Shown: positions 38,569 through 48,741 of the stretch, piece after piece
Layout: every line of letters begins with the position of its first letter
Position numbering within the stretch: position 1 is the first letter of the stretch
NCBI GenBank assembly: GCA_022823725.1
Contig: JAJEHL010000026.1
Location: 434,001 to 498,000 of the forward strand
Length of the DNA: 64,000 bases
Origin: Candidatus Latescibacterota bacterium
GTDB taxonomy: Bacteria > Latescibacterota > UBA2968
Reading direction: 5' to 3'
Translations under genes and position numbers: made by a program
Notes under the pieces: generated by a model
Seen by the model: the letters and a program-made list of their open reading frames with translations, nothing else
Databases searched by the model: none
Told to the model about the DNA's origin: nothing

Positions 38569-38597
38569 GTGGGTTCCTTTGTTGGTTGGGAGATGGG

Positions 38598-38692
38598 TTT
38601 GGTTCATAGGGTGGTTGGTGCAAAACTACCCATCCCCATTTACAATTGTTGCCCCATCAAACGTTTGGTTCATAGAGTGATTAGTGCAAAAC
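38598..38692 (+). repeat. Two 29-bp direct repeats in the dehydrogenase/cyclase divergent promoter region
   Basis: TTTGGTTCATAG..TGGTTGGTGC-type units at 38598-38626 and 38664-38692 match at 26 of 29 positions, with a 66-bp period. They lie between the leftward dehydrogenase gene and the rightward cyclase gene, where operators would be expected. Confidence 0.8.
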
Positions 38693-38736
38693 GCGCTTGA
38701 CGCTCATGAGATTTCGTCTATCTTGATTGCTGAGTT

Positions 38737-41700
38737 ATGATCTATATAGAAGTAAGAATGCGATGGATTGGCAAGCCAAAATTGCGGCTCAAAGCCGGCA
38801 CTACTGATCCGGGTGCATACCGAATGTGCCGCATCGGAAGGGGTGAAGATATAGACTTTTACGAGATGGTTGACCAGATACTGGAACTGCTTCGCGGTCG
38901 TGGCCGGGTTTCGTATCGCGCGCTCAAACGCCAGTTCGATCTCGATGACGAGGTGCTTGAGGACCTCAAAGAGGCCATTCTCTTTGACCATCCCCAGGCG
39001 AAGGATGAGGATGGCCGGGGGCTCGTATGGGCCGAATGCTCCGCCTCGGACCAGGAGGATGCCACACCACCTGCGGCGTCTCCGGTACCGGTTCCGTCGG
39101 AGGCCTGGGCGCGCGATCCGAACATGTACACCCCGCCCCATCTGATCGAGAAAATACTCACCTCCCGTGCCGCCTTGCAAGGAGAACGCAAGCAGGTCAC
39201 GGTACTGTTCTGCGATATGGCGAACTCGACGAGTATTGCCGAGCAACTCGGCGCAGAGGCCATGCACGACCTCCTGAACCAGTTCTTCAAGCTCGCCCTT
39301 GATGCCGTCCATCGCTACGAAGGCAATGTTAATCAATTTCTGGGCGATGGTTTCATGGCGTTGTTTGGTGCCCCTATCGCCCATGAGAATCATGCCCAAC
39401 GCGCAGTGCTCACCGCGTTGGAGCTTCGCCATCAGATTGAGGCATGGAACAACGCGAGGACGCGACAAAACGATGCCCAGATTACCCTCCGGATAGGAAT
39501 AAATACGGGTACCGTAGTGGTGGGAGCCATCGGTGACAACCTGCGGATGGATTACACCGCCGTGGGGGACACCACGAACGTGGCGGCTCGCCTGGAAGGG
39601 CAGGCTGCCGCCGATCAGATCGTGATCTCAGAGTCCACCTATCGTCTGGTTGAGGGATATTGCCAAACGCGCTCGCTCGGCACCTTTGACCTGAAAGGAA
39701 AGGCCGGTCCGACGCTGGCCTGGGAGGTGCTTGCCGCGTTCGAATCCGTGAATAGACTCGACGTGGAAATCAAACGCGGTCTGACGCATTTCATGGGGCG
39801 CGAACGCGAGTTGCAGACACTGCAGAACTGCTTTGCACAGGCACAGGCGGGTCGCGGGCAGATGGTCTTTCTGGTCGGAGATCCAGGCATTGGCAAATCG
39901 CGTCTCCTGCTGGAGTTTCGTCAGCGTATCGCTGCCACCGATGCTACCTGGCTTGAAGGCCGCGCCCTTTCATTCGGAAGTTCCTCAGTATTTCATCCTT
40001 TAATCGATATGATCAAGAGAAGCGCAGGTATCGAGGAGGCAGAGGCGGACACGACGGTCGTCACAAAGATTGAGCAGACGTTGTTAAGTCACAGCGAGGC
40101 CTTGCGTTCCGATCTGCCCTATCTGCGTTATCTTCTCGCCTTAGACCCCGGAGATGAGAACGTGCGAAGGATGGACCCGCAACTGCGCCGGAACGAGCTT
40201 TTCCGCGCGCTTCAGCGTGTCCTGTTCCACGCCTCGGAGTCGTCCCCCAGAGTGATCGTCCTGGAGGATATCCACTGGATGGATCAGGCGACTCAAGACT
40301 TCCTCGAAGCCATCGCCGACAGCATCTCGACAAGCCATGTCCTGTTTCTGTTGACCTATCGGCCCGGTTATGCCCCTCCATTTGGCGAGCGAACCTATCA
40401 TACGCACTTGACTCTGCAACCACTCTCGACAAAGCATAGCACACAGATAGCCAGGACCATACTGGGCGTCGATTTTTTGCCGGACGAACTCGCAAGCCTG
40501 ATTGACCGCAAAACGGAAGGGAATCCGTTCTTTGTCGAACAAGTGGTCAGATCACTCCAGGAAGTTGGGGCCATACGACGCGTTGAGCATCGTTGTGTGT
40601 TGACCAGGCCCATTGAGGATATTTCTATTCCCGAGACCGTGCAGGACGTTCTCTCGGCGCGATTTGATCGCCTTGATGAGGCGCACAGGACAACGCTTCA
40701 GTTCGCCGCCGTAGTTGGTCGAGAGTTTACACGCGGGCTACTCATCCGGCTGGAGGTGGCCCAGTCGGACCTGCTCGATACCTATTTGCGGGATCTGACG
40801 GATATTGAAATGATCCGCGAAATGAATTCGGAGCCAGATCTAAGCTATATATTTAAACACGCGCTCACGCGCGAGGTGGCGTATCAATCGCTATTGGTCA
40901 GGAGCCAGCAATATCTGCATCGGCTGATTGGCGAAACCATCGAGAAATTCGAAGTTGATCACCTGGTCGAACACGCTGAAGTGTTGGCCCATCATTTCGA
41001 GCAGGGGGAAATGTGGAAAAAGGCGCTGACCTATCTCATGCAAGCCGGACAGAAGGCACAGCAGGCCTCGGCTCTAAAGGAAGCACTTGATTTCCACGCG
41101 CGTGCCCTGGTCGTCTGTGAACAACTCGGCTCGGCGGTCGATCCGGAGATGATGTCGATCTACGCCCGCAAAGGCGAGGCGCATTTCCTCCGCAGCGAGT
41201 TTTTGCTTTCTGTCGAAGCCTATCGGCAAGTGCTCGAGATCGCCCGTCGGAACGGGGACCGGGCGCAAGAGGCGTTCGCCCTCTATAAGATGGGTTTGGG
41301 CTATCACTGGGCCCACGAATTTGAGGAGGCTTTGCAATGCAGCGAGAGCGCGAAGGCGTTAGCACAGCAGATCGGTGCCGAGTCCACGGTCGCGGCGAGT
41401 ACTTTCGTCATTGGCTGGATACGCGCTGTGCTCGGTGATCTCGACGAGGCCAGGCGTCATTGCAATGATGCGTTGCGGATAAGTCGAGAAGCCGAGGATG
41501 AGGAGCAGGAAGGGTTCTGCCTGTGGGTGTTGGGACAGATCAGGAACTGGAAGGGGGAATACGCACAGGCACTCCAGCTTCTGGATCAGGCACTGCACAT
41601 CGGCCGGACGCAGAACCTGCCATTTCTCATCTCCGGGGTGCTATGGATGAGAGGGATTATCCTGTGTGGGAGGGGTGACTACGAGAAGGCTCTTGCTTCC

Positions 41701-42459
41701 CTCGAAGAAGCCCTGGATCTGAGCGAGCGTCTCGGTGATTACGCCCACAGAGGGCGGATTCTCAATACTCTCGGTTGGGTGTGTGGCGAGCTCTATGACC
41801 TGGAGGCGGCTCTTCATTACAACCAGACGTGTCTCGACGCCTCGGAGGAAATCGGCGATCCCGAAGTCACCAGAAACGCACAGTTGAACCAGGGCGATAC
41901 CCTCCTTCTGCTCGGCAGGTTGGAAGAGGCCGAAGAGCATCTCGAGGAGGTCCACGAAAGCCTGCAGCGGCACGGGACATGGGGCGAAGACTGGATGAAA
42001 TGGCGATACGCCCAGCATATGTGGCACAGCCTGGGCGAGTTGTGGCTCGCGAAGGGAGATGGCGAAATGGCGCTCATATATACCGGGTTGTGCTGCGAGG
42101 GGGCGAAGCAGACGGCGAGCCGCAAGAACCTCGCCAAGGGATGGCGCCTGCAAGGGCAGGCCCTCCTCGCTCAAGGGCGCGATGAGGAAGCCGAGGAAGC
42201 CCTCCGTCGGGCACTGGCGATTAGCCGGGACCTCGGCAATCCGCCGCAGATCTGGCGGACGCATCAGGCACTGGGGATGCTGTATGAAGATCGGGATGAG
42301 ACGGATCGATCTCACGCTGCCTATCACGAGGCGCTGGACATTATTCACGAGGTGGCGACGCAACTGCAAGATTCCGAACGGCGGCGCACCTTTCTGGACG
42401 CGCAGCCAGTGCGACAGATACGAGAAGGGGCTGTACGCACCGGGCACGCAGAAACTTGA
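38737..42459 (+). CDS. Class III adenylate/guanylate cyclase with AAA ATPase and TPR domains (soluble-AC-like)
   Basis: A 1240-aa cytosolic signalling protein. An N-terminal winged-helix-like domain (about 40-100: FYEMVDQILELLRGRGRVSY) is followed by the cyclase domain (150-335). Metal ligands are D160 (VLFCDMANS) and D204 (FLGDG), transition-state residues N281 and R285 (NVAARLE), and base-selecting positions Q200 and T274 (DYTAVGD). An AAA/NTPase module follows, with Walker A GDPGIGKSRL (381-390) and Walker B VIVLEDIHW (about 505), then TPR-like helical repeats (about 760-1220). This is the architecture of mammalian soluble adenylyl cyclase and class IIIb bacterial relatives, several of which respond to bicarbonate. 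The start is uncertain: homologues usually begin at MDFY, where this gene has ATA-GAC-TTT at 38851; the ATG at 38737 has a poor ribosome-binding site. The SulP gene follows 14 bp downstream. Confidence 0.88.
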   Translation: MIYIEVRMRWIGKPKLRLKAGTTDPGAYRMCRIGRGEDIDFYEMVDQILELLRGRGRVSYRALKRQFDLDDEVLEDLKEAILFDHPQAKDEDGRGLVWAECSASDQEDATPPAASPVPVPSEAWARDPNMYTPPHLIEKILTSRAALQGERKQVTVLFCDMANSTSIAEQLGAEAMHDLLNQFFKLALDAVHRYEGNVNQFLGDGFMALFGAPIAHENHAQRAVLTALELRHQIEAWNNARTRQNDAQITLRIGINTGTVVVGAIGDNLRMDYTAVGDTTNVAARLEGQAAADQIVISESTYRLVEGYCQTRSLGTFDLKGKAGPTLAWEVLAAFESVNRLDVEIKRGLTHFMGRERELQTLQNCFAQAQAGRGQMVFLVGDPGIGKSRLLLEFRQRIAATDATWLEGRALSFGSSSVFHPLIDMIKRSAGIEEAEADTTVVTKIEQTLLSHSEALRSDLPYLRYLLALDPGDENVRRMDPQLRRNELFRALQRVLFHASESSPRVIVLEDIHWMDQATQDFLEAIADSISTSHVLFLLTYRPGYAPPFGERTYHTHLTLQPLSTKHSTQIARTILGVDFLPDELASLIDRKTEGNPFFVEQVVRSLQEVGAIRRVEHRCVLTRPIEDISIPETVQDVLSARFDRLDEAHRTTLQFAAVVGREFTRGLLIRLEVAQSDLLDTYLRDLTDIEMIREMNSEPDLSYIFKHALTREVAYQSLLVRSQQYLHRLIGETIEKFEVDHLVEHAEVLAHHFEQGEMWKKALTYLMQAGQKAQQASALKEALDFHARALVVCEQLGSAVDPEMMSIYARKGEAHFLRSEFLLSVEAYRQVLEIARRNGDRAQEAFALYKMGLGYHWAHEFEEALQCSESAKALAQQIGAESTVAASTFVIGWIRAVLGDLDEARRHCNDALRISREAEDEEQEGFCLWVLGQIRNWKGEYAQALQLLDQALHIGRTQNLPFLISGVLWMRGIILCGRGDYEKALASLEEALDLSERLGDYAHRGRILNTLGWVCGELYDLEAALHYNQTCLDASEEIGDPEVTRNAQLNQGDTLLLLGRLEEAEEHLEEVHESLQRHGTWGEDWMKWRYAQHMWHSLGELWLAKGDGEMALIYTGLCCEGAKQTASRKNLAKGWRLQGQALLAQGRDEEAEEALRRALAISRDLGNPPQIWRTHQALGMLYEDRDETDRSHAAYHEALDIIHEVATQLQDSERRRTFLDAQPVRQIREGAVRTGHAET

Positions 42460-42473
42460 GAAGTCAAATTTCC

Positions 42474-44660
42474 ATGAAGTTTCAAAAGAACATCGAAAAT
42501 ATTTTGGCCGGAATTATCAGGGGGATCCTGGCAATATTTGCAACGATTGCTTTGGCAGCGTTGATTTTCTCCGGCCCTCTGGTAGAGTATCTCTCGACGG
42601 GAATAGTCCTGCTTCTGATCAGCACCGTTGTAATCGCACTTGGTGGGACGCTGGGAAGTGGTTATCCCGGCATCATAGTCGCGCTTCGATCAGCCACGAT
42701 CCCTATCTTTTCCGCGATGGCGGCAAAAATTGCAGTAACGATGGCGGCTCAGGGCCAAGAGGCCGATGTGTTAGCGACGGTGATCGCGGCATTCGGGATC
42801 ACGAGTATTGTGACTGGTCTGGTCCTGGTGCTGGTCGGACAATTTGGTCTGGGCAGACTCGTGCGCTACTTTCCTTACCCGGTCGCCGGAGGAATCTTTG
42901 CCGGAGGAGGATTCTCGCTTTTCGCAGGCGGAGTGTCGGTCGCTCAGCCCATTCCCTGGAATGACCTCGCTATATGGCTTTCTCCGGAGATTATACAGCA
43001 GTGGGCTCCGCCGTTGATTTTTGGCGTGTTTTTGTACGTTGTTAAACGCCAGTGGAATCAGTGGTTCGTTATTCTGATCCTTTTGCTGCTGGGATTTGCG
43101 GTGTTCTACACGTTCTTGTGGTTGAGCGGTCAGACCCTGGAAGTAGCCAGGGCCTCGGGCTGGTTGCTGGAGCTTTCCGATTTCCCGACCTTATTTCCGG
43201 TCTTCGATTTCGATGACTTATCCCGCGTGCATTGGCTGACTGTTGCGGGACAGGCTGGCAACATCGGGGCGATCGTGATGGTGTGCGTCATCCTGCTCTT
43301 GATCGACGTTACGGCCATCGAAATCCTCGTCAATAGGGAACTCAATCCAAATCGCGAACTGAAGGTGGCTGGGGTCGCGAATCTGGCCTGTGGTCTGTGC
43401 GGCGGTTGTGCTGGCGTTCAGAGTCTGCCGGATACGGCCTCATTCTATATGTCGGGCGGCGATCGCCGCCTGGCGGGGTTTGCCTTTGTCGCCTGCATCC
43501 TGACCGTGGCCTTCGTCGCGATCAATTTCATCTCTATGTTTCCGGTTTTTATCGTAGGCGGTCTGCTCGTCTATATAGGAATCGATTTTCTGCTGCAATG
43601 GGTGTGGATGGCCCGAAAAGAACTGCCGGCGTCGGACTATATCGTGGTACTGCTGATTCTGACGGTCTGCATCTGGCAGGGTCTTCTTGAGGGGATAATC
43701 TTTGGGTTGTTACTATCGGTGATCCTGTTCGTAATCAACTATAGTCGGCTCACCAGCATCAGAAGCGAATACACCGGACGGGACCGCATCAGCCACATCG
43801 AGCGCGATCCGGAGATTCGGGAGATTCTCGACCACGAGAGCGACTGTATTCTCATCATGGAGGTGCAAGGCGCTCTTTTCTTTGGAACGGCTGGCGACTT
43901 GATGGGCGTCATACGCGAAAAGTTGACATCGCCGGCGGGACTGAGGTTAAAGTATCTGATTCTGGATCTCAAACATGTCGTCTTCATGGACACGTCGAGT
44001 GTCACGCTCTTTTCGAGACTGGCCCAGGTGACGGAAAATCACGGGGTTTCGGTGGTCATCACGGGACATGACGAAAGGATGGGAAAACAATTGGAAGGCA
44101 TCGGGTTTTTCACGAAACCGACATCGCGTGTCCACCGCTGTCAATTTTCTCAACTCAATGAAGGCATCGCCTATTGCGAGGACCGGATTCTGGATGATCA
44201 CAAGGCGTCAAGGCTCGCCGGCACCGACACACTCGAAGGCCGGCTGGGCAAGATGCTGGGAGACGAGGATGCCGCCCGCCAGATGGTGCCTTTCTTCCAG
44301 CGACAGGAACATGCCGCGGAGGACTGGCTGTTTCGGCATGGGGATCTGGGAGACAGTCTTTATATCGTTGATTCGGGTACAGTGTCGGTGGTGATCGACG
44401 CAGCATACGGCGGTGAACACGTTGTGTGTGTTTATACGAGCGGTGCGATCCTCGGCGAGATGGCCGTCTATATGGAAGGGCCGCGTACGGCGAGCGTTCG
44501 AGTCGAAACCCCGAGTGTTCTGTACCGTCTTGACACCGAGGCCCTACAGCACTTCCAATTGCGGTATCCCGAATCTGCTGGCCGTTTTCATGCCGCCATC
44601 GTCAAGATGATTGCAGCCCGCCTGGATCGTTCCACGCGGGAGCTTCAGCATCATCTATAA
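42474..44660 (+). CDS. SulP anion transporter with STAS and cyclic-nucleotide-binding domains
   Basis: A 728-aa inner-membrane transporter. Residues 1-430 form the SulP membrane domain with many helices (GSGYPGIIVALRSATIPIFS; YFPYPVAGGIFAGGGFSLF; GCAGVQSLPDTASFYMSGGD). A STAS domain follows (about 450-555) with LILDLKHVVFMDTSSVTLFS. A C-terminal cyclic-nucleotide-binding domain (about 590-715) has the phosphate-binding cassette ILGEMAVYMEGPRTASVRVE, whose Glu and Arg are the residues that hold the cyclic phosphate and ribose in CAP-type domains. SulP proteins move sulfate, bicarbonate or other anions. The ATG at 42474 is chosen over a TTG at 42456 that overlaps the cyclase stop. Placed directly behind a cyclase gene, it is a likely target of the cyclase product (inference). 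Confidence 0.9.
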   Translation: MKFQKNIENILAGIIRGILAIFATIALAALIFSGPLVEYLSTGIVLLLISTVVIALGGTLGSGYPGIIVALRSATIPIFSAMAAKIAVTMAAQGQEADVLATVIAAFGITSIVTGLVLVLVGQFGLGRLVRYFPYPVAGGIFAGGGFSLFAGGVSVAQPIPWNDLAIWLSPEIIQQWAPPLIFGVFLYVVKRQWNQWFVILILLLLGFAVFYTFLWLSGQTLEVARASGWLLELSDFPTLFPVFDFDDLSRVHWLTVAGQAGNIGAIVMVCVILLLIDVTAIEILVNRELNPNRELKVAGVANLACGLCGGCAGVQSLPDTASFYMSGGDRRLAGFAFVACILTVAFVAINFISMFPVFIVGGLLVYIGIDFLLQWVWMARKELPASDYIVVLLILTVCIWQGLLEGIIFGLLLSVILFVINYSRLTSIRSEYTGRDRISHIERDPEIREILDHESDCILIMEVQGALFFGTAGDLMGVIREKLTSPAGLRLKYLILDLKHVVFMDTSSVTLFSRLAQVTENHGVSVVITGHDERMGKQLEGIGFFTKPTSRVHRCQFSQLNEGIAYCEDRILDDHKASRLAGTDTLEGRLGKMLGDEDAARQMVPFFQRQEHAAEDWLFRHGDLGDSLYIVDSGTVSVVIDAAYGGEHVVCVYTSGAILGEMAVYMEGPRTASVRVETPSVLYRLDTEALQHFQLRYPESAGRFHAAIVKMIAARLDRSTRELQHHL

Positions 44661-44735
44661 GAGGCGTCGGATCCTGGTCGCCCGATGAAGAACTTTTCAC
44701 GTTGTACATTTCCGAATATTTCGGCAACTTTTTAG

Positions 44736-45569
44736 ATGAGTGCTTTGAATCACATGTACGTTCGGTTCTGGGGAGTACGGGGGAGCATCCCTGTCTCGGA
44801 TGCTCATTATATCCGCTACGGCGGGAATACGTCTTGTGTCGAGGTCCGTTGCGGGGAGGCGGTGTTTGTTTTTGATGCCGGTTCAGGTATTCGCGGGCTG
44901 GGAGCTGCCCTGGTTGAGGAAGGATGTACTGAGGTCGATCTGTTTCTTTCTCATAGTCATATCGACCATATCCTCGGTCTGCCGTTCTTTCCGCTCGCCT
45001 ACCAGCGCGGCAATACGCTCCGGGTATGGTCCGGCCATCAACCGGAGGACGGTAGCACCGAAGGGGCGGTTCGCCACCTGATGAGCGCGCCGCTCTTTCC
45101 CGTGTCGCCCGAAATTTTTTCCGCCCACGTTGCGTTCTTCGACTTTCAGGCTGGCGAGACACTGAATCCCAAGCCTGGAATCGTCATTCGCACTGCGCCG
45201 CTTCGTCATCCCGATGGGGCGACGGGTTACCGGGTCGAATACGCTGGAAAAAGCATCTGCTACATCACGGACACCGAGCACGAGCCGGGGATGCAGGATG
45301 AGAACGTCATTGGCCTTATTGAAGGGGCTGATATCGTGATCTACGACGCGATGTTTACCGATGCTGAGTTCTCCCGCTATCGCGGCTGGGGGCATTCGAC
45401 CTTTGAGGAAGGGGCGCGGCTATGCCGTGTGTCTGGTGTCAAGACGTACGTCATCTTCCACCATGCACCGAAGCGCGACGATGAGGCACTCAGTAGAATT
45501 GAAGTGGCGGCGCGTCGGTTGTTCGCCGGGGCGGTAGTGGCCCGCGAAGGACTGACTTTAAGCCCCTGA
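44736..45569 (+). CDS. MBL-fold metallohydrolase (PhnP/cAMP-phosphodiesterase-like)
   Basis: A 277-aa metallo-beta-lactamase-fold protein of the subgroup beginning VRFWGVRGSIP...RYGGNTSCVEV. The metal motif is SHSHIDHILG (H73, H75, D77, H78). Later ligands are the His in APLRHPDG, the Asp in CYITDTEHEPG and the His in VIFHHAPKRDD. This subgroup includes phosphoribosyl cyclic phosphodiesterases and proteins found near cyclase and cNMP-binding genes. A role in hydrolysing the cyclic nucleotide of this cassette is plausible but unproven. It starts 75 bp after the SulP gene; an ATG at 44754 is an alternative start. It converges on the methyltransferase gene. Confidence 0.85.
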   Translation: MSALNHMYVRFWGVRGSIPVSDAHYIRYGGNTSCVEVRCGEAVFVFDAGSGIRGLGAALVEEGCTEVDLFLSHSHIDHILGLPFFPLAYQRGNTLRVWSGHQPEDGSTEGAVRHLMSAPLFPVSPEIFSAHVAFFDFQAGETLNPKPGIVIRTAPLRHPDGATGYRVEYAGKSICYITDTEHEPGMQDENVIGLIEGADIVIYDAMFTDAEFSRYRGWGHSTFEEGARLCRVSGVKTYVIFHHAPKRDDEALSRIEVAARRLFAGAVVAREGLTLSP

Positions 45570-45588
45570 GCAGGGTTCGATGGTAGTA

Positions 45589-46770
45589 TCAGTCCGACAA
45601 TTGGGAGGGCAGTTCGCGGGCGAGCAGTTGTTCAAGACTGGGGGTGATGTGCCAGAAGTCGCGCAGGATGCGATATTCCCGAACGAGGGTTGGATCACTT
45701 GTTCGGGCGGTTTTTTTTGCGCGGATGAGGATGTTTTTGGGCGTGTGTTTGGAGTCGATGAATTCTATGAGTTCGGTGCGATAGCCCAGTATGCGCAGGA
45801 TTTGTGCGCGGCAGGCGTCGGTGAGGATGTCGGCAGTGCGTCCTTTGAGGATGCCGTGCGCCATTACGGGTGCGAAGACGGATGCGTCGAGTTGTGGGCG
45901 CAGTTCGTGCTGGCAGCAGGGTGCTGCGAGGATGACGGGGCTGTGCCACTGTACGGCGCGGGCAATGGCGTCGTCGGTTGCTGTGTCGCAGGCGTGCAGG
46001 CTAAAGACGATGTCGGGCGGTGTTTGGGGTGTGAAGTCGGCGATGCTGGAATTGTGAAAGGCGAGGTCTGTCCAGCCGAGGTCACGGGCGAGGGTGCGAC
46101 ATTTGGCGATGAGGGACGGGTTGTGGTCAATGCCGATGAGTTGTGTGGGGATGTTCTGGATGTTGTTCAGGTAGTGATACGCTGCAAATGTGAGATATGC
46201 GCTACCGCAGCCGCAGTCTATGAGGGTGAGGGAACGTTTCGATGCTGGTATGACGGGTTGTAAGTGGTGGAGAAAGGCGTTGATTTGTTTGAATTTGTCG
46301 CGCATGGAGGCGCGTACGCGCCCGTTTTGATCCATGATGCCGAGGCCTTGGAGGAAGGCGTCTGGACGGTTGTCGGATAGGGGGTGGTGTTTGACGCGGT
46401 TGTGCGATAGTGCGGGGTGGGCATCTGGACGCGAGGGTTTTGCGCGTTTGAATAATGCGCGCCCTTTTTTGGTGATGCGAATGTGCAGGTCTTCGCCGCT
46501 GGTTTGTACGTGGATTTGTGCGAAGGGCAGGGCGAGTAGTTCATCAAGCGCGGCGTTCGCGTCGGTCAGCGGAATGTTTTCCGTGATGTCTTGCGTGTGG
46601 CTATATCGCGCGATCTGGAGGTGGGGCGCGTTTTTGATCTGGACCAGGCGGACGGCGATTTTGTTACATGTTGTGCCGCGACGTGGATGGCTTATGGTAA
46701 GCCTGAGAAAGGTCTCGGGGTTTGATACCGCATTGAGTATGGCGGTTTTGTAATTTGTTTCACACCGCAT
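45589..46770 (-). CDS. SAM-dependent methyltransferase (Methyltransf_32 / RRNAD1-like)
   Basis: A 393-aa class I methyltransferase. The SAM-binding motif I is LIDCGCGSAYLTFAAYHYL (about 183), motif II follows in LIGIDHNPSLI, and the family-specific SLHACDTATDDAI and APCCQHELRP segments come near 255 and 280. This group includes GSTCD/RRNAD1-type proteins that modify RNA or small molecules; the substrate is not known. The N-terminal ~170 residues form an extra domain. Its start overlaps the end of the dehydratase gene by 11 bp, so the two are probably cotranscribed. The opposite strand carries a long open frame that is a compositional shadow. Confidence 0.85.
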   Translation of the reverse strand: MRCETNYKTAILNAVSNPETFLRLTISHPRRGTTCNKIAVRLVQIKNAPHLQIARYSHTQDITENIPLTDANAALDELLALPFAQIHVQTSGEDLHIRITKKGRALFKRAKPSRPDAHPALSHNRVKHHPLSDNRPDAFLQGLGIMDQNGRVRASMRDKFKQINAFLHHLQPVIPASKRSLTLIDCGCGSAYLTFAAYHYLNNIQNIPTQLIGIDHNPSLIAKCRTLARDLGWTDLAFHNSSIADFTPQTPPDIVFSLHACDTATDDAIARAVQWHSPVILAAPCCQHELRPQLDASVFAPVMAHGILKGRTADILTDACRAQILRILGYRTELIEFIDSKHTPKNILIRAKKTARTSDPTLVREYRILRDFWHITPSLEQLLARELPSQLSD

Positions 46771-47982: not shown

Positions 47983-48741
47983 ATGTCGAATTTGCGTTTT
48001 GCAGCAGAGAAGGAACGGCGGGTTGCGCTTGTTACGGGGGGTGCGCGAGGTATTGGTGGGGCAACGGCGGTTCGGATTGCAGAGGAGGGGCGGGATGTTG
48101 TTGTTGCCGATGTTCTGGCAAAAGAGGGGGCGGAGACGGTTGAAAGGATTGAGGCACTGGGACAGGAGGCGATGTTTGTGGAGACTGATGTGACGGATGA
48201 GGCCGCTGTTCAGGCGTGTGTGGCACAGGCGGTTGCGCGTTTTGGGAGATTGGATATTCTGGTGTGTTGTGCGGGTATTTTGGGATGGGAGAAGCCGTTT
48301 TTTGAGCAGCCTGTGGCGCAGTTTGATAAGGTGATGCGGATCAATGTGTACGGGGTTTATCATTTTCACCAGGCTGCAATTCCCCATATGCTCGCAGGGG
48401 GTTGGGGGCGCTGTGTGACGATTACTTCGGGTGCGCGAAATGGCAGTCCCAATCAGGTGCCGTATTCGGTGTCAAAGGGTGCTGTGTATTCATTTATAGG
48501 CGCGCTGGGCAATGCGTATTGCAAACAGGGTGTGTTTGTCAATGGGGTGGAGCCGGGGCGGGCGTTGACGGATATGGTGGTGCCGAGGTTTTCGCCCGAG
48601 TATGTTGCCAGTCCTCCAGGTCAGCCGATGGGGCGGTATTCGGACCCGGAGGAGGTGGCTGAGGTGATTGAGTTTTTGTGTTCTGAGCGCAATACCTATA
48701 CGTCGGGTTCGGTGTGGAGTGTGAAAGGGGGAAGAGGTTAG
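47983..48741 (+). CDS. Short-chain dehydrogenase/reductase (SDR)
   Basis: A 252-aa classical SDR that moves hydride between NAD(P)H and an alcohol or ketone. The cofactor motif is VTGGARGIGGATAVRIAEEG, and CCAGILG stands at the usual NAG position. The catalytic Ser is in ITSGARNGS and the Tyr-Lys in PYSVSKGAVYSF. The usual C-terminal GG is present. The ribosome-binding site is GAGGAGG. It overlaps the convergent sulfatase gene by four bases, the two stops sharing TTAG. It could act with the neighbouring dehydratase in sugar-acid breakdown (context only). Confidence 0.9.
   Translation: MSNLRFAAEKERRVALVTGGARGIGGATAVRIAEEGRDVVVADVLAKEGAETVERIEALGQEAMFVETDVTDEAAVQACVAQAVARFGRLDILVCCAGILGWEKPFFEQPVAQFDKVMRINVYGVYHFHQAAIPHMLAGGWGRCVTITSGARNGSPNQVPYSVSKGAVYSFIGALGNAYCKQGVFVNGVEPGRALTDMVVPRFSPEYVASPPGQPMGRYSDPEEVAEVIEFLCSERNTYTSGSVWSVKGGRG

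Follow-up and report, generated by a model that had tools for sequence, protein, structure and literature searches.

In bacteria, cyclic nucleotides are mostly regarded as global signals that are read by transcription factors. Here we describe a locus at which such a signal may be confined to a single transporter, i.e. a three-gene cassette in a 64,000-nt stretch of contig JAJEHL010000026.1 of a Candidatus Latescibacterota bacterium (the window). Its genes encode a class III nucleotide cyclase followed by AAA ATPase and TPR parts, a SulP transporter with a STAS domain and a C-terminal cyclic nucleotide-binding domain (CNBD), and a hydrolase of the metallo-beta-lactamase (MBL) fold. We read the cassette as a horizontally acquired operon with a built-in cyclic-nucleotide loop that acts on one SulP transporter, and assign this reading a probability of roughly 60%.

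Each of the closest described systems shares a part of the cassette. The atypical class-II phosphodiesterases, among them Rv1339, C. glutamicum CpdA and B. subtilis YhfI, have the motif [T/S]HXHXDH (PMC9293780), and YhfI strongly prefers cAMP and cGMP (PMC9117128). The cassette MBL has the PF12706 domain, the motif and the MBL fold in common with them, and YhfI is its nearest solved structure. We know of no operon that joins one of these enzymes to a CNBD transporter. The Dictyostelium proteins GbpA and GbpB are type IIb MBL phosphodiesterases with two CNBDs (PMC11988041); the coupling of an MBL-type phosphodiesterase of cyclic mononucleotides (cNMPs) to CNBDs is similar, but they are eukaryotic fusions in which the cNMP activates the phosphodiesterase, and the unit contains neither a transporter nor a cyclase. 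Mammalian soluble adenylyl cyclase (sAC) and cyclase-AAA-TPR proteins likewise have a class III catalytic domain followed by an AAA ATPase and TPR. In contrast to mammalian sAC, the window cyclase has one catalytic domain instead of two and a Gln at the position of the base-recognizing Lys, and sAC is a poorer match to it than CyaB (45 versus 107 bits). SulP/SLC26 proteins including BicA share the SulP and STAS parts, but the identity to any of them is ~30%, and in the window the transporter comes with a cyclase and an MBL protein. Pycsar systems also combine a class III cyclase with a CNBD protein, and the window differs from them by its transporter, its MBL protein and the absence of a TIR effector or a dedicated transmembrane (TM) effector.

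The cassette is one insert at a variable site

The three genes are consecutive, lie on the + strand and have operon-like spacing, with gaps of 14 bp between the cyclase and SulP genes and of 75 bp between the SulP and MBL genes (Table 1). Open reading frames and Pfam matches thus agree with the gene content and order given in the initial annotation.

In eight sister genomes, DNA on both sides of the insert can be aligned at 89-98%, on the left as far as ~38576 and on the right beginning at ~45611. Five of these (L090, L092, L094, L096, and L097) have an empty site with ~33 bp between the flanks, and the other three (L091, L093, and L095) contain 2.7-3.2 kb of DNA unrelated to the cassette. By eye, the inserts of L091 and L095 resemble a DNA cytosine methyltransferase with a companion gene, and that of L093 an IS607-type element. 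The genes of the right flank are kept in the sisters at 82-97%. Being empty or differently occupied in the sisters, the site represents a hotspot of insertion within the genus; it is intergenic, between genes for a sorbosone dehydrogenase and a methyltransferase.

None of the three cassette proteins was matched in ten other genomes of the genus, several of which are near complete. The SulP matches in the sisters are ~29-31% identical and represent a resident paralogue, which is also present in the host and lacks a Pfam match to a CNBD. The ten sister genomes contain no PF00211 protein, so that the insert carries the only class III cyclase in this sample of the genus. The host genome (51 contigs, 98% complete) has the cassette cyclase as its sole PF00211 protein; PF00027 is matched six times, by about five of its proteins. 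The three genes arrived together as one segment, which goes beyond a chance neighborhood; the latter was rejected on the basis of the clean insert and the linkage statistics given below. No transposase, integrase or terminal repeats were seen within the insert. GC3 and codon use of the insert differ only mildly from the flanks and are not informative.

An assembly chimera was also considered and is unlikely, as both junctions lie within a 740-kb contig and the flanks match the sister genomes at 89-98%.

Class III cyclase and CNBD genes recur beside the MBL subfamily

An alignment of rhizobial relatives of the MBL protein was scanned against 85k genomes, and 80 loci were kept of ~580 subfamily matches. 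Among the matches listed, the loci belong almost exclusively to Proteobacteria, and the nearest relative of the window MBL is that of a gammaproteobacterial metagenome-assembled genome (L107; 69% over 272 aa). The subfamily has the signature RFWGVRGSI / YGGNTSC (L107-L186, L100-L106), and the ABC transporters encoded next to it have ~900 aa. In a quick maximum-likelihood tree, the window MBL nests inside the proteobacterial clade as sister to the L107 protein (SH-aLRT supports of 99, 97, and 95), and MBLs from the phylum of the host branch separately. This position supports a transfer from a proteobacterium.

Profiles for cyclases, CNBDs, SulP, MBL and neighboring ABC transporters were run over all MBL loci. 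To quantify linkage, 45 loci were used that had been dereplicated at 80% and had full 5-kb flanks. Within 5 kb of the MBL gene, a class III cyclase is found in 22 of the 45 loci, a CNBD gene in 10, an ABC transporter in 11, a cyclase or a CNBD gene in 26, and all three of ABC transporter, CNBD gene and cyclase in five. The order ABC-CNBD-MBL-cyclase is seen, e.g., in L145, L167, L169, L173, L174, L180 and L186, where the cyclase gene either overlaps the MBL gene or is up to ~5 kb away. Of 71 MBL loci, 18 have a cyclase gene 0-2 kb downstream, always on the same strand, versus 1 of 55 at 6-8 kb. For comparison, twelve such genomes contain 83 cyclases in ~49 Mb, i.e. ~1.7 per Mb or ~0.02 per 10-kb neighborhood. 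Class III cyclases and CNBD genes thus accompany the subfamily far more often than the background predicts. Two loci in which a cyclase accompanies a distant MBL with unrelated genes in between (L098 and L099, genomes G048/G052) were not counted.

The sites of the linked proteins are well conserved. In the alignment of CNBDs from the MBL loci, Glu and Arg of the phosphate-binding cassette are each present in 31 of 31, and Arg-Thr in 27, as in the PRTA of the window. The linked cyclases have both metal-binding Asp (55/55), the Asn (54/55), and Arg or Lys at the Arg position. Rhizobial MBL loci have genes for polysaccharide deacetylase, glycosyltransferase and sugar-nucleotide dehydrogenase nearby, and in one of them (L170) a single MBL gene stands amid two ABC-CNBD pairs and two cyclase genes.

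The window contains the components by which this module is defined, i.e. an MBL of the clade with a class III cyclase, a CNBD and a transporter within ~10 kb. The cassette may therefore be viewed as a SulP-based form of a broader module of Proteobacteria, in which an MBL of this subfamily would be combined with a class III cyclase, an ABC transporter and a CNBD encoded as a protein of its own.

Catalytic and binding sites of the cassette proteins

The cyclase is matched by the Pfam models Guanylate_cyc (2.5e-28), AAA_16 (6.5e-28) and TPR_12 (8e-36), and CyaB (3r5g) is the closest solved structure (E 1.3e-29). The residues D160 and D204 (metal), Q200 and T274 (base recognition), N281 and R285 could be assigned. 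Two metal Asp, Asn, Arg and a Thr (T274) at the Asp position characterize it as a class IIIb enzyme, a class that includes bicarbonate-responsive members. The description as a soluble-AC-like cyclase thus holds for the class III, AAA and TPR parts, and fails for the tandem C1-C2 arrangement, as there is a single PF00211 stretch. The adenine-recognizing Lys is replaced by Gln200; among 55 surveyed linked cyclases, 3 have Gln and 35 Lys. The aligned structure 2w01, a guanylyl cyclase, has Glu at this position. Because Gln200 stands where most cyclases have Lys, cAMP is a likely but not a certain product.

In the transporter, Sulfate_transp (PF00916; 7e-24, 84.7 bits), STAS (6.5e-13, 48.8 bits) and cNMP_binding (1.1e-18) were detected; the open reading frame 42456-44660 has 734 aa from its TTG start. 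The canonical phosphate-binding cassette of CNBDs carries Glu and Arg (PMC2246266), and both are retained in GEMAVYMEGPRTASV as E668 and R677; sequence and alignment confirm that this cassette is intact, as had been proposed. SthK with cGMP/cAMP is the closest solved CNBD (E 5e-12).

The architecture SulP-STAS-CNBD also occurs in cyanobacteria and several proteobacteria (Caballeronia, Ensifer, Shinella). A single-protein scan of the genome contigs with the window SulP protein found no relatives, and a conserved three-gene order was not seen around the ~30% identical SulP relatives of the host's phylum, alpha- and gammaproteobacteria, and plasmids. In Ensifer, the SulP-CNBD gene is followed by an AraC gene and then by an MBL gene of the same family that overlaps the gene of a CHASE2 cyclase. 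In Caballeronia, a divergent gene for a SAM-cyclase-AAA-TPR protein accompanies the SulP-CNBD gene. The pairing of SulP-CNBD and cyclase is therefore rare but recurrent. The broader arrangement, in which a CNBD-associated transporter adjoins the same two enzymes, is common. On plasmids of Ensifer (L072) and Shinella (L073), SulP-CNBD genes adjoin genes for an NHLP/C39-type bacteriocin exporter and FecR-domain proteins.

Two further CNBD proteins of the host were noted. The first (L036:6623-7156, G000:C30) consists of a CNBD only and has an intact-looking VPRTAA cassette; CNBD proteins of its size (177-195 aa) occur across the genus despite the absence of class III cyclases. The second (L037:7655-10696, G000:C45) has ~1000 aa and combines two CNBDs with a C39 peptidase and an ABC exporter. 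Its cassette looks non-canonical (QGHRATV), so that it may sense something else, and CNBD proteins of this size are also found in the host genus, which has no class III cyclase.

The MBL protein is matched by Lactamase_B_2 (PF12706, 1.4e-18), and H73, H75, D77 and H78 are invariant in an alignment of 30 sequences. Its residues 72-78, SHSHIDH, fit [T/S]HXHXDH, a motif that is also present in RNase Z and hence not specific. PF02112, the domain of the typical class-II phosphodiesterases, gave no match at E<=0.001. An AlphaFold2 model (pLDDT 93) has YhfI (6kns) as best match in the Protein Data Bank, at ranks 1-3 (E 5e-15, TM 0.73/0.83), followed by an ELAC homologue, RNase Z (close behind), the PhnP family and the cNMP-cleaving Apyc1 (7u2r). 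The protein probably works like an atypical class-II phosphodiesterase.

A self-contained loop and its alternatives

We infer the steps of the loop as follows, including cNMP binding and hydrolysis, the gating and its sign, and the identities of messenger and substrate. The cyclase, with its activity probably set by the AAA/TPR part, would make a cyclic mononucleotide, most likely cAMP. Binding of this cNMP to the C-terminal CNBD, beside the STAS domain, would alter anion transport by the SulP protein, and the MBL enzyme would hydrolyze the messenger and reset the system. The earlier proposal that the three proteins make, sense and remove one signal is supported by the linkage of the MBL to cyclases and CNBD genes, the YhfI-like model and the recurrent pairing of SulP-CNBD and cyclase.

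Several findings weigh against this reading. The same three-gene order was searched for in other genomes and was seen only in the host genome. About half of the MBL loci are without a nearby cyclase, and L107 has the order MBL-ABC-CNBD, no cyclase nearby and four cyclases elsewhere in the genome. Of the 29 other SulP-type loci in the survey (some of them without a detectable CNBD), 27 lack a cyclase in the neighborhood. Because the cassette of the CNBD-only protein L036 looks intact, the transporter may share the signal with other proteins. Gln200 in place of Lys leaves the base specificity of the cyclase, and even its activity, uncertain. The identity of the MBL to YhfI is 19%, and RNase Z structures are nearly as good. 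With NF041851, the NCBIfam model of the cNMP-degrading group, the MBL scores 47.9 bits at a cut-off of 400; because of this missed cut-off, we do not call it a member of the atypical class-II phosphodiesterases. Lastly, a control with distant MBLs of the host's phylum, in which 0 of 11 loci (0 of 20 including partial flanks) have such neighbors, is confounded because this phylum has fewer cyclases; the distance bins and the background rate are better controls.

The MBL and the cyclase could form a cNMP pair without a dedicated loop, with the SulP-CNBD protein merely traveling along or sensing cell-wide cNMP. The scarcity of cyclases at the other SulP-type loci and the additional CNBD proteins of the host, one with an intact-looking cassette, are compatible with this view, as is the alignment of the CNBDs of the SulP set, in which the cassette Arg is kept in 20 of 27 and lost in 7. 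Yet the three genes are one block with which nothing else arrived, and the genus is otherwise without a class III cyclase. Furthermore, the wider module likewise pairs a transporter with a CNBD, and the three cyclase-linked SulP proteins (window, Ensifer, and Caballeronia) all have E...RTA in their CNBDs, a post hoc observation on small numbers. We regard this alternative as unlikely.

Somewhat less likely still is that the MBL acts on another substrate, in an RNase Z-like or PhnP-like manner, and is a mere neighbor. RNase Z models outscore the cyclic-nucleotide phosphodiesterase model on this protein (65.9 versus 47.9 bits), and the structures of RNase Z, PhnP and PqqB are near as well. The repeated same-strand linkage of the subfamily to cyclases and CNBD genes argues against such a role, as does the preference of YhfI, the best structural match, for cAMP and cGMP (PMC9117128).

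We think it very unlikely that the cassette is a Pycsar-like anti-phage system, in which infection would trigger the cyclase signal, the CNBD membrane protein would be the effector, and the MBL would limit leakage. The cyclase matches the PADLOC PycC models (87 bits) and the CNBD those of Pycsar TIR effectors (32 bits), the site is an insertion hotspot at which two sisters have an apparent DNA cytosine methyltransferase with a companion gene, and the structural matches of the MBL include Apyc1, an MBL enzyme that degrades Pycsar signals (PMC9117128). However, the PycC models represent class III cyclases in general and also match the rhizobial cyclases, and the rhizobial module sits among polysaccharide genes. 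The combination that defines Pycsar, i.e. PycC with a CNBD-TIR or CNBD-TM effector, is absent, as the cassette contains no TIR or dedicated TM effector gene and a SulP transporter is not known as a Pycsar effector; the similarity is generic for class III cyclases and CNBDs.

A CO2/bicarbonate control loop, in which a bicarbonate-activated soluble-AC-type cyclase would control a bicarbonate-carrying SulP protein, had been suggested and is the least probable explanation: T274 of the cyclase is compatible with bicarbonate sensing but no evidence for it, and BicA (6ki1) is the best solved match of the SulP part, but the score with the NCBIfam BicA model NF050096 is 66 bits at a cut-off of 880, no carbonic anhydrase or carbon-fixation gene is present among the annotated neighbors, and of the residues that bind Na+/HCO3- in BicA (Thr69, Asp258, Thr262, Gly300, Ala301, and Thr302; PMC13249358) only Thr69 is clearly kept, as Gly300-Ala301-Thr302 align to Gln-Ser-Leu in the 6ki1 alignment and Asp258/Thr262 to Leu/Asp when ungapped (both mapped by eye).

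Layout of the locus

Table 1. Coordinates of the cassette and its features in the window
Feature	Position	Strand	Basis or remark
Inserted segment, 7,034 bp	38577..45610	.	Three genes and their upstream region, bounded by sister-genome alignment
30-nt direct repeat, copy 1, possible operator	38597..38626	+	Upstream of cyclase gene
30-nt direct repeat, copy 2	38663..38692	+	Directly before weak promoter-like site 38697-38724
Class III nucleotide cyclase-AAA_16 ATPase-TPR, 1240 aa	38737..42459	+	Pfam; true start may be downstream
Cyclase catalytic domain, residues 151-323	39187..39705	+	PF00211 99.3 bits, cut-off 21.9
SulP-STAS-C-terminal CNBD transporter	42474..44660	+	Likelier start ATG 42474; alternative TTG 42456 overlaps cyclase stop
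CNBD, residues 617-700 of 734-aa frame	44304..44555	+	PF00027 67.3 bits
Phosphate-binding cassette GAILGEMAVYMEGPRTAS, Glu668 and Arg677-Thr678	44442..44495	+	Sequence, alignment
MBL-fold hydrolase, proposed cNMP phosphodiesterase, 277 aa	44736..45569	+	PF12706 67.7 bits, AlphaFold2 model, subfamily linkage
HSHIDH metal-binding motif H73-H78, Ser72 before	44952..44969	+	Fits [T/S]HXHXDH

The two direct repeats upstream of the cyclase gene are 90% identical, have a spacing of 66 nt and lie inside the insert. They are the only two copies in the window, with 0 expected by chance, and possibly represent an operator. The number of promoter-like matches upstream of the cyclase gene is not above the shuffled expectation. 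In the right flank, an SDR-family gene (47983-48741) has a markedly deviating codon usage, with a distance of 21 versus 5-8 in its neighbors, in a region that is conserved in the sisters.

Discussion

We found no description of a transporter-CNBD-MBL-cyclase module or of a CNBD-MBL-cyclase operon in the open-access papers that were searched. Beyond the window, we tentatively propose, at slightly less than even odds, a widespread and hitherto undescribed module in which a dedicated cyclase and an MBL phosphodiesterase would set a local cNMP level that gates one transporter via a CNBD. The CNBD would be either separate, as with the ABC transporters of proteobacteria, or fused, as in the SulP proteins of the window and Ensifer, and the module could be transferred in its entirety to genera with no other class III cyclase.

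With three genes, one insert and sister genomes without it, the cassette offers an easily testable system. It also provides a concrete hypothesis for the function of a large alphaproteobacterial MBL subfamily, including many members on rhizobial plasmids. If the reading is true, the cassette, which would make, read and remove its signal at a single transporter and pass from phylum to phylum as a unit, is a prokaryotic counterpart of the local cNMP signaling known from channels.

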